From NCBI GenBank assembly GCA_030147525.1, contig JASBVF010000016.1, positions 186,001 to 250,000 of the forward strand: a DNA stretch of 64,000 nucleotides. Direction: 5' to 3'. The position numbers were made by a program, and so were the translations under genes. The stretch's first letter is position 1. Each line of letters begins with the position of its first letter. Shown here piece after piece: positions 27,170 to 61,574 of the stretch. The notes beneath the pieces are model-generated. The model did not search any database. It was given only the letters and a program-made list of their open reading frames with translations, and was not told where the DNA came from. Source of the stretch: Bacteroidota bacterium. GTDB lineage: Bacteria > Bacteroidota > Bacteroidia > Chitinophagales > Saprospiraceae.

Positions 27170-27442
27170 AAAAGTTGATTATCATACACTTAGGGTGTTT
27201 AGTGTATCTTTTATGTACTCGCTTGGTGTTATTTACTATCATGTTGTACTTTTTATGTACTCGCTTGGTGTTATTTACTATCGTGTTGTACTTTTTATCT
27301 ATCCTGATGTATCATTTACGTCGAGTAATGTATTTTTTATGTATCCGTTTGTATTCTATTACTGCGAGTATCTACCATTTTAGTATGGTGATATACTTTA
27401 TTAGTACTCTGGTGTACTTATAAACTACGGGCTCGTACTTTT
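27170..27442. repeat. Degenerate tandem array with exact 21-nt period (array 1)
   Basis: Thirteen consecutive 21-nt units start at 27170, 27191, 27212, 27233, 27254 and so on to 27422. Units 27212-27253 and 27254-27295 are near identical as a 42-nt pair; the others are degenerate. Most units carry GTAC or GTAY at positions 4-7 and 14-17, followed by TTTT-rich ends, so palindromic words recur every 10-11 nt. Both strands lack a credible start signal, and the open frames through it simply reflect absence of stop codons. It begins right after the GH20 terminator. Confidence 0.85.
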
Positions 27443-27646
27443 TAAATAAATGCTTCGTGTCAGCAAGTGGGTTTTTTCAAAAGAATCTGGAAGAAGAAGG
27501 GCTGGCTGGAATTTTGCATAGCAAAAAAAATAAAGTGTTTTATGCCCGGGGCCGAACTTCAAAAAAGGAAGTGGTTTGATCGAATAAATCGCCCCAGCCT
27601 TGGCACCCAGAAATTATTTCGATAATATTTGCGCAAAACGACTGAA
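27443..27646. other. Gap between array 1 and the methyltransferase gene
   Basis: No gene is seen. The stretch has a CCCCGGGCAT-like GC patch near 27544-27555 and otherwise AT-rich sequence. It should contain the promoter of the 27647 gene, but no convincing TTTG / TAnnTTTG pair was found. Confidence 0.4.
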
Positions 27647-33566: not shown

Positions 33567-34400
33567 ATGCGATTCCTCACCCTCGCCCTGGCCTTTTTCT
33601 TTTTCTCCTGCAATGGCAATTTGCGTTTCCTCACTTACAACATCCGCCTCGATACCCCCGCCGACGGTGTGAATCAGTGGCCGAACCGCAAGGAAAAAGT
33701 CGCTGCCTTGCTCCAAAAACACGATCCGGATGTTTTCGGCGTGCAGGAAGCCAGACACAACCAGATGACCGATCTTGAAACGTTGCTGCCCGCTTACGCC
33801 TGGCTCGGCGTGGGGCGGGACGATGGTAAAACCGCCGGGGAATACTCCGCCATTTTTTATAAAAAAGAAAAATTCGACCTGCTGCAAAGCGGCACCTTCT
33901 GGCTCTCCGAAACGCCCGAAGTGCCCGCCAGCAAAAGCTGGGATGCCGCCATCACCCGCGTCTGTTCGTGGGGGGAGTTTCAAGATAAAAAAAGTGGCAA
34001 AAAGTTCTTCGTTTTCAATACCCACTTCGACCACATTGGTGAAACGGCCCGGCTGGAAAGCATGAAACTCATCGCTGAAAGAATCCGGGAGATGGCGGGA
34101 GCGTCGCCGTTTGTCCTCATGGGCGATTTCAATTTTAACCCCGAAGCCGCACCCTACCAGGTTGTAAACGATGCCACTCGCTGGAAAATCAAAGACAGCT
34201 ACCTCGCCGCCGAAAAAAACGACGCAAAAAATGCCTGCACCTGGACGGGCTTTCAGGTCGAAGGCGCCGAGTGCAATCGCATCGACTACATTTTTACAAG
34301 TGAAAAAATGGTGGTGAAATATTTCAACATTATCGATGAAAACGACGGTACGTACTTTCCGAGTGACCATCTGCCGGTGCTGGCAGTGGTGAAATTCTAG
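33567..34400 (+). CDS. Endonuclease/exonuclease/phosphatase-family lipoprotein
   Basis: The protein has 277 residues from ATG 33567. The lipobox is LALAFFFFSC, giving a lipidated Cys15. The EEP fold motifs are present: LRFLTYNIRLDTP, DVFGVQEARHNQM (Glu), FVFNTHFDHIGETAR, FVLMGDFNFNP, RIDYIFTSEKM and the final SDHLPVLAVV (catalytic Asp-His). Secreted Bacteroidota members of this family act as phosphodiesterases or nucleases; which one is not decidable. The gene is followed directly by a long GTAGGCRA-type inverted repeat. Confidence 0.92.
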   Translation: MRFLTLALAFFFFSCNGNLRFLTYNIRLDTPADGVNQWPNRKEKVAALLQKHDPDVFGVQEARHNQMTDLETLLPAYAWLGVGRDDGKTAGEYSAIFYKKEKFDLLQSGTFWLSETPEVPASKSWDAAITRVCSWGEFQDKKSGKKFFVFNTHFDHIGETARLESMKLIAERIREMAGASPFVLMGDFNFNPEAAPYQVVNDATRWKIKDSYLAAEKNDAKNACTWTGFQVEGAECNRIDYIFTSEKMVVKYFNIIDENDGTYFPSDHLPVLAVVKF

Positions 34401-34512
34401 TAGGCAAGTAGGCGAGTAGGCCGGTAGGCAAGTAAAATACCGTTTTTCAATCGGTTAGAATTAGGCATTGAAAAACAGTATTTTACTCGCCTACTCGCCT
34501 ACTCGCCTACTC
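34401..34512. repeat. GTAGGCRA octamer inverted repeat
   Basis: Tandem words of the form GTAGGCAA / GTAGGCGA run from about 34400 to 34432, and their complements CGCCTACT run at 34486-34511. The arms 34414-34451 and 34467-34504 pair over 38 nt with about four mismatches, including the unique inner part AAAATAC...TTTTTCAAT. The right arm overlaps the 3' end of the GT2 gene and supplies its TAG stop at 34491-34493. Confidence 0.88.
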
Positions 34513-48695: not shown

Positions 48696-48702
48696 TCTTG
48701 AG

Positions 48703-48775
48703 TAGGCAAGTAGGCAAGTAGGCGAGTAGGGAAACGCATTTACTTCCCTGCAAGGCTACTTGCCTACCGGCCTAA
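48703..48775. repeat. GTAGGCAA octamer inverted repeat between barrel and receptor genes
   Basis: GAGTAGGCAAGTAGGCAAGT and GTAGGCGA words (48703-48730) face the complement ACTTGCCTACCGGCCTA (48759-48775). The inner GGGAAAC/TTCCC part also pairs partly. It is the third clear site of the family in the window. Confidence 0.82.
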
Positions 48776-59295: not shown

Positions 59296-60225
59296 ATGAA
59301 TATCCAGCAACTTGAATACATCCTGGCCGTGGAAGAACACGGTAGTTTCAGCAAAGCCGCCGAATCGAGGTTCATCTCACAGCCGGCCCTCAGTATGATG
59401 GTGCAAAAACTGGAAGACGAACTCGATATCAAAATCTTCGACCGCAGCAAGCAGCCCATCATCCCGACGGACGCCGGGGAGCCTGTTTTGGAGCAGGCAA
59501 GGGTGGTTCTGCGGGAGATTTCCAGGCTCTATGAAATCACCCGGCAGCAGCGGGAGATGATCAGCGGGGAGTTGAGCATTGGCATAATTCCAACGTTGGC
59601 GCCGTACCTGCTGCCGCTGTTTTTGAAATCTTTTTTGGAAAAATACCCGCCTGTTCACCTCAAAATCTACGAACACACGACGGAGACGATCGTCGAGAAA
59701 CTCAAAAAAGGACAGCTCGACGCCGGGCTGCTCGTCACGCCGTTGCCGCAGGCTTTTTTGAATGAAACGCCGCTGTTTTACGAAAGCTTCTACGTGTACG
59801 CCCATGACGAATTCGCCAAAAACTACCTGCTGCCCGAAGACATCAATCCCGACGAACTCTGGCTGCTGGAGGAGGGCCACTGCCTGCGCTCCCAAATCCT
59901 TAACCTCTGCGAACTGCGCAAAAAATCGAACGCCCAACTGGAATTCGAGGCTGGCAGCATCGACACCCTCATTAAAATGGTGGACCACCAGAGCGGCGTC
60001 ACCATCGTGCCCGAACTGGCAACGCTCACCCTCTCGAAGGAACAGCGCAAACGGCTGAGGCCCTTCGCTCCGCCCGTGCCCGTGCGGGAAGTGAGCCTGG
60101 TGACGCACCGGGATTTTGTGAAAAAAAGCCTGATCGAAGCCTTGCGGCAGGAGGTGCTGGCGAGCCTGCCGAAACTGGCGGTGAAAGCAGGGGAGGGAGA
60201 AAGGGTGGAGATCGGGAAGGGGTGA
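59296..60225 (+). CDS. oxyR: Hydrogen-peroxide-inducible regulator OxyR
   Basis: The protein has 309 residues from ATG 59296. The N-terminal winged helix is MNIQQLEYILAVEEHGSFSK and QPALSMMVQKLEDELDIKIF. The redox cysteines of OxyR are present with the exact nine-residue separation: GHCLRSQILNLCELR. The effector domain has GELSIGIIPTLAPYLLPLFL and VDHQSGVTIVPELATL, as in OxyR. It senses H2O2 through a disulfide and activates peroxide defence. No catalase or peroxiredoxin gene lies next to it, so it regulates in trans. Array 2 lies just downstream. Confidence 0.95.
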   Translation: MNIQQLEYILAVEEHGSFSKAAESRFISQPALSMMVQKLEDELDIKIFDRSKQPIIPTDAGEPVLEQARVVLREISRLYEITRQQREMISGELSIGIIPTLAPYLLPLFLKSFLEKYPPVHLKIYEHTTETIVEKLKKGQLDAGLLVTPLPQAFLNETPLFYESFYVYAHDEFAKNYLLPEDINPDELWLLEEGHCLRSQILNLCELRKKSNAQLEFEAGSIDTLIKMVDHQSGVTIVPELATLTLSKEQRKRLRPFAPPVPVREVSLVTHRDFVKKSLIEALRQEVLASLPKLAVKAGEGERVEIGKG

Positions 60226-60278: not shown

Positions 60279-60530
60279 GCGCATCCATAAACCCCCGGAA
60301 CGTTTATGGAAGATGATTTTACGTTTATGGAAGCGTAAATAACGTTTCGCTAAACGTAATTCACGCTTATCGAGACGTAACTTTCGTATATGGAAGCCTG
60401 ATTTTCGGATCATTATACGTGACGAACGTATCGATAAACGTAACTTACGTTTACGGAGACGTGCGTTACGGATATTTAAACCTGGCTTACGTCTCCATAT
60501 ACGTAACGGGAGTATATGGAGTTAGAAGAG
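60279..60530. repeat. Degenerate tandem array with exact 21-nt period (array 2)
   Basis: Units start at 60300, 60321, 60342, 60363, 60384, 60405, 60426, 60447, 60468, 60489 and 60510, with a weaker unit at 60279. The frame of 21 never slips. Most units begin ACGT and have a second ACGT at positions 13-16, then AACTT or similar; between them lies TTATGGAA or a variant. The first two full units are almost identical over 13 nt. No translation frame is open over the whole array on either strand. It sits between oxyR and the oxygenase gene. Confidence 0.88.
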
Positions 60531-60593: not shown

Positions 60594-61574
60594 TCACCAC
60601 TTATTCAATCCTAACAACTTCTCTCCCAATTCAGACAACACCGCCGTCCCATACTTCGTCTGTTCCCAATTCCGGGGATCGCCGGGGAAGGCATAACCTT
60701 CCGGGGCAATACGGTTCTTCCAGGAATTGATGCGCCATTGCCGGAGCGGTTCATTTTCTTCCTGTGCGGGCATCATGGAAATGTACTGTGCGATACGCAC
60801 TTTGTTGGAATGGTTAGGACGGATGCCATGCGGTTGGGCGCTGTTGAAGATCAGCAGGTCGCCGGCTTCCATGGGCACTTTCACGAGTTGGTCTTCCAGG
60901 CCGGTGATGTCCGGTTGAAAACGGTTACGGTCTTCGGGCTGGGTCAGTTTCCAGGTGTCGTAATTTCTGAACAACCACGGGATGCATTGAAAACCGCCCA
61001 TGTCAGGGTCCGTCTGATCGGCCAGCGCCAACACGCCCTGCACATTCTGCGGTTTCGTCTCCGGGTCATAATCCCAATGGATAAAACCCTTGTATTCATG
61101 GCCGGGCCGCATGGGGAAATTCAGGTTCGCCCTGTCGATGGTGACCCAGAGTTTTTCGGTGCCCCAGATGTCCACGAAGGCATCGTACACCCGCTGCATC
61201 TGACGGTTGTTCCAGAGTTGCTGGTGGTTGTAAACCTCCACCATGCCGGTGCCGGCCAGTTCTTTCATTTGAATCTCGGCACGGGGAGCAGTGTACCAGG
61301 TGGACGGGTCGTCCGGGTCTTTTTCCTCAAACTCCCAGAGGAAGGCCGCCGTTTGCTGCACCTGTTCGGGCGGCACGGCATTTTTGATGACGATGTAACC
61401 GTTGTGCCGCCAGAAATCCCATTGTTCTTTGGTTAAAACACGGAGGGAGTCAGCAGTGGCTTCCTGCCTGAGTTTGACAGTGCTGCTTTTGGCGGTGGAG
61501 GGATTGCCCGGAATGTCTTTATGCTGGTTGTCAGGCGCCATTGTGGGGGCCATGGTTTTGTTTTTATCGTCCAT
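60594..61574 (-). CDS. Phytanoyl-CoA dioxygenase-family 2OG-Fe(II) oxygenase
   Basis: The protein has 326 residues from ATG 61574. An N-terminal low-complexity part (about 40 residues) precedes the PhyH domain: WRHNGYIVIKNAVPPEQVQQ. The iron ligands are HWDYD (HxD) and the distal His in SAQPHGIRPNHSNKVRIAQY, where Arg binds 2-oxoglutarate. Bacterial members hydroxylate diverse small molecules; the substrate is unknown. The 3' end abuts array 2. Confidence 0.88.
   Translation of the reverse strand: MDDKNKTMAPTMAPDNQHKDIPGNPSTAKSSTVKLRQEATADSLRVLTKEQWDFWRHNGYIVIKNAVPPEQVQQTAAFLWEFEEKDPDDPSTWYTAPRAEIQMKELAGTGMVEVYNHQQLWNNRQMQRVYDAFVDIWGTEKLWVTIDRANLNFPMRPGHEYKGFIHWDYDPETKPQNVQGVLALADQTDPDMGGFQCIPWLFRNYDTWKLTQPEDRNRFQPDITGLEDQLVKVPMEAGDLLIFNSAQPHGIRPNHSNKVRIAQYISMMPAQEENEPLRQWRINSWKNRIAPEGYAFPGDPRNWEQTKYGTAVLSELGEKLLGLNKW

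Follow-up and report, generated by a model that had tools for sequence, protein, structure and literature searches.

A tandem array of 21-nt units (Array 2, A2) lies between two genes of a Saprospiraceae bacterium (Bacteroidota; assembly GCA_030147525.1, contig JASBVF010000016.1), within the 64,000-nucleotide stretch of DNA that we analyzed here (the window). What kind of element is it, how many more are there, and why should unrelated sequences share one unit length? The original prediction, made from the letters of the window, could match A2 to no named repeat family. Such a family has been described, however: bacterial tandem repeats of constant size (20–21 or 52 nt), variable sequence, and unknown function are reported from Bacillus, with other groups mentioned (PMC8161180). 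Their authors, Subirana and Messeguer, point out that 21 nt equal two turns of the helix and propose a polymerizing protein or small RNAs (PMC8161180); that paper builds on their 2020 article in J Bacteriol, and an earlier survey is also theirs (PMC6749651). Our search of the open-access literature returned no paper on such arrays in Saprospiraceae.

Materials and Methods

Genes were called with a simple codon-usage script, and intergenic gaps of at least 100 bases were scanned with a p/2p/3p periodicity statistic. The scan reports the best period of each gap alone, and a weaker 21-nt signal beneath another period would be missed. The genome comprises 7.08 Mb in 59 contigs; the sample (1.664 Mb) consists of the window plus 80 stretches, each of 20 kb, and stretches and loci carry L numbers. 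For the register test, a leave-one-out profile was slid from −10 to +10 over each unit. For the dyad test, the 21-column profile was compared with its own reverse complement under column permutation, in all program matches of period 21 with z ≥ 6.5. Loci homologous to flanking genes numbered 51 in other genomes: 8 for oxyR, 8 for phyH, 6 for a transporter, 10 for a gamma-glutamyltransferase, 3 for a methyltransferase, 4 for a glycosyltransferase, and 12 for the gene beside the array in L026.

Structure of the Array

Coordinates are collected in table 1. Written in rows of 21, the units from 60300 to 60509 stand in register, and to this extent the eleven to twelve units in perfect register that had been predicted hold; at the edges, row 60279 is a unit with its inner octamer inverted and row 60510 a weak one. 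The array itself is confirmed, as the lag-21 identity of 60279–60530 is 0.537, against 0.257 ± 0.030 (maximum 0.346) in 500 dinucleotide shuffles (periodicity z = 17). Identity is 0.54 at lag 21, 0.50 at lag 42, and 0.59 at lag 63, whereas every other lag between 3 and 69 gives 0.12–0.33. The word ACGT, expected at positions 1–4 and "usually" at 13–16, occurs 12 times (shuffle mean 3.5, maximum 9), and all 12 copies fall at register position 1 or 13. Yet the exact word stands in 6 of the 12 rows at either site and in 4 of the 12 at both, so that "usually" was too strong. The inner octamer between the two sites is found in both orientations within one register (rows 60279 and 60489 versus 60300 and 60321), and 84 of the 252 positions deviate from the consensus. 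The two palindromic half-sites per unit of the original prediction are better put as one dyad-symmetric 21-bp unit (profile p 0.001–0.002 versus column permutation), with axes at columns 8.5 and 19 in the phase used there. After recent duplicates are dropped, column conservation is only weakly uneven, with p 0.08 in A2, 0.008 in Array 1 (A1), and 0.84 in the array of L016. No Rfam match at gathering score was obtained in the window, and the A2 locus holds no terminator-like site and two promoter-like sites (0.9 ± 1.2 in shuffles).

Table 1. Position, strand, and evidence for A2, its parts, its neighbors, and A1.
Feature	Position	Strand	Evidence
Array 2 (A2), about 11 units of 21 nt, consensus ACGTTTATGGAAACGTAACTT, weak edge units	60279..60530	.	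sequence rows, shuffles, consensus
9-bp inverted repeat TCCATAAAC / GTTTATGGA within left edge of A2	60284..60310	.	read from sequence
10-bp inverted repeat CTCCATATAC / GTATATGGAG within right edge of A2	60493..60521	.	read from sequence
Left arm of whole-array imperfect inverted repeat, center 60402	60284..60394	.	74/111 positions complementary; folds
Right arm of whole-array imperfect inverted repeat, center 60402	60410..60520	.	complementarity count
LysR-type regulator gene (oxyR; HTH_1, LysR_substrate), 3' end facing A2	59296..60225	+	gene and domain calls
PhyH-type dioxygenase gene, 3' end facing A2	60594..61574	-	gene and domain calls
Array 1 (A1), sister 21-nt array of the same window, sequence unrelated to A2	27196..27447	.	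z 11.9

Comparison with Known Repeats

A2 belongs to the constant-length, variable-sequence class, of which it displays four features. It has about 11 equal units of 21 nt without a slip, where the class has at least four of 20–21 nt; the genome holds several arrays that agree in length and differ in sequence (nine of 21 nt and three of 42 nt at z > 7 in 1.664 Mb); no amino acid repeats are encoded, a codon-position pattern being present in none of eight of the genome's own arrays; and the array is species specific. In fact, none of the 51 homologous loci carries a 21-nt array at z ≥ 7, and a search of 39 other genomes with the array part of A2 gave nothing below E 0.1. The repeats of PMC8161180 likewise have 20–21-nt units, form several unrelated families per genome, and are noncoding and species specific. 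They differ in having been worked out in Bacillus, and the word start "bacteroid" is absent from the main text of that paper. Two properties found here, dyad symmetry of 20–21-nt units and a register that persists through substitutions, were not met in the accessible text of PMC8161180, which for the 52-nt repeats does note short words and their reverse.

Other repeats resemble A2 less. BrickBuilt MITEs (23 nt) and the 464/PgRS repeats (41 nt) of Porphyromonas gingivalis, also Bacteroidota, are tandem and spacer-free as well, with units close to two or four turns of the helix (PMC4596501). BrickBuilt, however, is a single family with leader, tail, and inverted ends, in 19 copies in one strain (PMC4596501), whereas A2 is single copy. 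A search of its own genome returned, besides A2 itself, six matches of 15–24 nt at E 0.45 or worse and no second copy, which argues against a BrickBuilt-type MITE or any other multicopy element; short inverted repeats do lie inside each edge of the array. REP elements are short extragenic palindromes as well (PMC3733652), but consist of one sequence in many copies per genome, whereas A2 is a single locus with strict 21-nt units. CRISPR arrays are built of regularly spaced repeats. The units of A2 abut and enclose no unique spacers, and a CRISPR array is therefore rejected.

Arrays in the Same Genome and in Other Genomes

In the sample, whose contigs were picked from earlier matches and which is thus not random, 18 of 669 gaps exceed z 7, with period 21 in nine, 42 in three, 16 in three, and 9, 41, and 57 in one each. 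Among the intergenic arrays at z > 7 with periods of at least 17, 12 of 14 have 21 or 42 nt, two of these 12 (L171 and L149, z 7.4) being weak. With slightly narrower edges, 28 matches above z 6 are obtained from the same 669 gaps, and not one from three dinucleotide-shuffled replicates of them. A1, which had been proposed as an array of the same period and different words, proves real (z 11.9); its single 9-mer in common with A2 does not exceed the level of random intergenic pairs (mean 1.45). The units of the genome's arrays are mostly unrelated: no 9-mer is common to all, and A2 stands apart, its sharing being no higher than that of random pairs. A check for characteristic words, confined to 9-mers, found them shared within A1, L016, and L086, and with A2 no more than in the control. 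Further 21-nt intergenic arrays, whose absence would have refuted the original prediction, do exist in the 1.664 Mb sampled, and the suggestion of a class defined by geometry is borne out by more intergenic 21- and 42-nt arrays of mostly unrelated sequence, in this genome and in other Bacteroidota.

Among same-genus genomes (400 kb), four 21-nt arrays were detected, all within 200 kb of one of them (G004), and none in 200 kb of four other congeners. Neither other genera of the family (240 kb) nor other families of the order (160 kb) gave a 21-nt array. Arrays of 21, 22, 41, or 42 nt are present in loci of Chitinophagaceae and similar groups (338 kb) and of Bacteroidales (123 kb). Over all groups at z ≥ 7, 35 of 54 matches have period 21, 22, 41, or 42, seven have period 14, and none 31 or 32.

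Several observations accompany the scan. A1, L016:13071–13385, and L086:379–798 form one sequence family on a single contig (C31), spread over about 160 kb, with 80 common 9-mers between L016 and L086, 25 between A1 and L086, and 3 between A1 and L016; the L016 member lies directly upstream of a Mutator-family transposase gene. Read on the minus strand, the array at L019:8765–9013 is open for 82 heptad-like residues followed by a stop, and annotation pipelines may call such frames genes. Between convergent genes, L090:15372–15623 holds a 41-nt array whose six or so near-identical units have a palindromic GGAATATTCC core, and L101:1–168, at a stretch edge, has 57-nt repeats with a CCCCGGAGGGGCG hairpin that look REP-like by eye. 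Octamer microsatellites such as AGTAGGCA and TCTCATTC occur at 34399–34434, 34484–34512, and 48701–48730 of the window and at L166:8686, L168:10323, and L169:16281.

Neighboring Genes and Homologous Loci

A2 sits in a convergent gap, behind the 3' ends of both its LysR-type and its PhyH-type neighbor. The LysR protein has its closest named relatives (77–82% identity) in metagenome-assembled Bacteroidetes and one Saprospiraceae bacterium. No link of A2 to oxyR or to the gene at 60594 was found, the 16 homologous oxyR and phyH loci being without a 21-nt array at z ≥ 7. Since identity is as low as about 50% for some homologues, one of the phyH loci comes from another genus, gene order is mostly unconserved, and some loci are cut by contig ends, the absence from the homologous loci shows lineage specificity and does not date the gain. 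Weaker 21-nt signals appear in L030 (z 6.7), L201 (5.6), and L222 (5.1), about as many as the array density of the genus leads one to expect, and they are not counted as kept arrays. That of L030, a congener, spans 709–880 beside phyH, on its 3' side and thus on the same side as A2. In two Chitinophagaceae genomes, 21- and 22-nt arrays (L061:9443–9610 and L072:9598–9765) lie directly upstream of an oxyR homologue, which may be chance given the density of arrays.

The position next to a regulator gene raises the question of whether A2 is a cluster of binding sites for one regulator, such as the adjacent LysR-type protein. Dyad-symmetric units suit dimeric regulators, and a second array, in L019, adjoins a MarR gene. 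Nevertheless, A2 follows the 3' ends of both neighbors, the eight homologous LysR loci have no array, and the other arrays of the genome stand beside unrelated genes with mostly unrelated words, all of which makes this reading quite improbable. Gene orientation shows no clear preference either, and the numbers allow no more to be said: where both neighbors are resolved, A2 and L022 are convergent, L019, L026, and L142 divergent, and A1, L016, L025, L095, and L171 tandem, in a sample of 50 convergent, 168 divergent, and 405 tandem gaps.

A unit of 21 nt could equally be read as seven residues, and A2 as a decayed or small coding repeat. Two reading frames are indeed open across most of A2, an 83-residue frame is open in L019, and the best frame of L086 has fewer stops than 99% of column-wise shuffles. 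In the other seven of the eight own arrays, however, stops in the best frame stay within the shuffle range, and column variability lacks a codon-position pattern in all eight (p 0.26–0.81). The original prediction had itself named a decayed coding repeat in relatives as an outcome that would overturn it; the data leave this explanation very little room.

Register, Dyads, and Half-Site Spacing

Despite many substitutions, none of the 80 units scored in nine own arrays is off register, and in a shift test on eight of them only weak edge rows moved. Among 12 arrays of other genomes, 13 of 72 units are off register, L056 contributing seven and L105 three. When neutral decay of an 11-unit array was simulated (25–35% substitution, 5–20% indels per substitution), 0–5% of the detected arrays were free of indels. 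The indel ratios are assumed, and duplicated units share ancestry, which means fewer true substitution events; the contrast drawn by the simulation is hence somewhat overstated. Among simulated arrays as periodic as A2 (z > 15), few in number, the indel-free share is 0–25%, the upper end at 25% substitution; the register argument therefore rests on the nine arrays jointly.

Dyad symmetry is present at p ≤ 0.05 in 16 of 21 arrays of 21 nt (mean z 2.68) and lacking in the other 5, compared with 5.2% of 400 real single intergenic 21-mers. At other periods it is found in 9 of 17 arrays of 41, 42, or 22–23 nt, in 5 of 17 of 9–18 nt, and in none of 6 with other periods of at least 24. The dyad-paired columns that are best conserved lie 7–10 apart on the 21-column circle (z 2.4–3.7 versus column permutation). 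Thus, inverted half-sites stand about half a unit, or one helical turn, apart, and by simple arithmetic successive turns expose a half-site on one and the same face of the DNA. Complementarity within units is below that between units (Stouffer z −4.15, 21 arrays); the units are accordingly not selected as private hairpins, and one hairpin per unit is rejected. Nor is A+T-phased curvature retained as an explanation, the 10.5-bp component being nonsignificant (z 1.1 versus real 21-mers, z 2.1 versus column permutation).

As a rival reading, the array could be transcribed and fold as one long irregular hairpin, which would shield or end converging transcripts or feed RNase III. Each strand of A2 folds into one long hairpin, one at −87.8 kcal/mol (z −5.8 versus shuffles) and the other at −86.9 kcal/mol (z −7.1), and mirror units pair at 0.64 as against 0.52 for other in-register pairs (z 3.7, a value inflated by the pairing center being the best of many). 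The order of units has a strong effect for L025 and L057, and it matters on one strand or both for L142, L061 (42 nt), and L072 (41 nt); moreover, the 52-nt satellites of Bacillus coagulans are transcribed (PMC8625621). Over 33 arrays, however, the unit-order effect averages z −0.53, with A2 itself at only −1.3 and −2.3; L171, L078, L095, and L060 fold no better than shuffles; G–T mispairs are not in excess of A–C (197 versus 209); and arrays are found in convergent, divergent, and tandem gaps. The long hairpin is a property of some arrays and not class wide, and the RNA reading is unlikely.

Origin and Proposed Mechanism

How, then, is the unit length kept? One answer is that the arrays are functionless: at short palindromes, replication slippage or template switching would create and homogenize them, and either the helical pitch or the enzyme would dictate the step. 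Several results agree with such a copying by-product: the 51 homologous loci without a 21-nt array at z ≥ 7, the lack of a clear orientation preference, and the occurrence of the A2 core both ways round relative to the dyad axis, the outcome expected of loop inversions. Duplication of several units at once is displayed by lag 63 exceeding lag 21 in A2, lag 42 exceeding lag 21 in A1, and alternating units in L016. Slippage alone, on the other hand, does not set 21 nt across unrelated sequences, and A2 has kept its register with 84 of 252 positions off consensus, whereas plain neutral decay mostly loses it. The by-product is possible, and nearly as likely as the mechanism that we favor.

That mechanism, put forward tentatively as the most likely one, is a helix-phased platform for a putative polymerizing dimeric DNA-binding protein. 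The two-turn period, the register that persists under substitution, the dyads, and the half-sites one turn apart are best fitted by a protein filament growing dimer by dimer. The 21-nt unit amounts to two turns of B-DNA, its length fixed and its sequence free; in this genome its letters vary by substitution while the register of the nine arrays is kept, probably by selection. In most 21-nt arrays, inverted half-sites about one turn apart present one half-site per turn on the same face, and the putative dimer may respond to this geometry or to a loosely defined half-site instead of a strict word. With one dimer per two turns, polymerization could build a local nucleoprotein filament in the intergenic spacer. 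Judging from the 42- and 63-nt similarity and the absence at homologous loci, we infer that arrays are gained and lost within lineages through multiunit duplications that keep the register.

A stronger form of the favored platform, which we consider rather doubtful, would make the arrays landing strips for a protein that senses helical geometry and hardly any sequence, through inverted contacts once per turn and one dimer per two turns. If so, almost any 21-bp sequence could seed an array, and Bacteroidota, like groups outside them, would maintain the arrays as a sequence-free bacterial satellite that serves nucleoid structure or gene insulation. Overall, an array-rich genome is added to a published but unexplained class of repeats with fixed length and free sequence, and with it come three properties open to testing: a register that survives substitutions, dyads in unrelated units, and a half-site spacing of about one helical turn. 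A constant size of unknown reason thereby becomes a more definite question, namely what requires two helical turns, a dimeric DNA-binding protein or a copying step, and which one.
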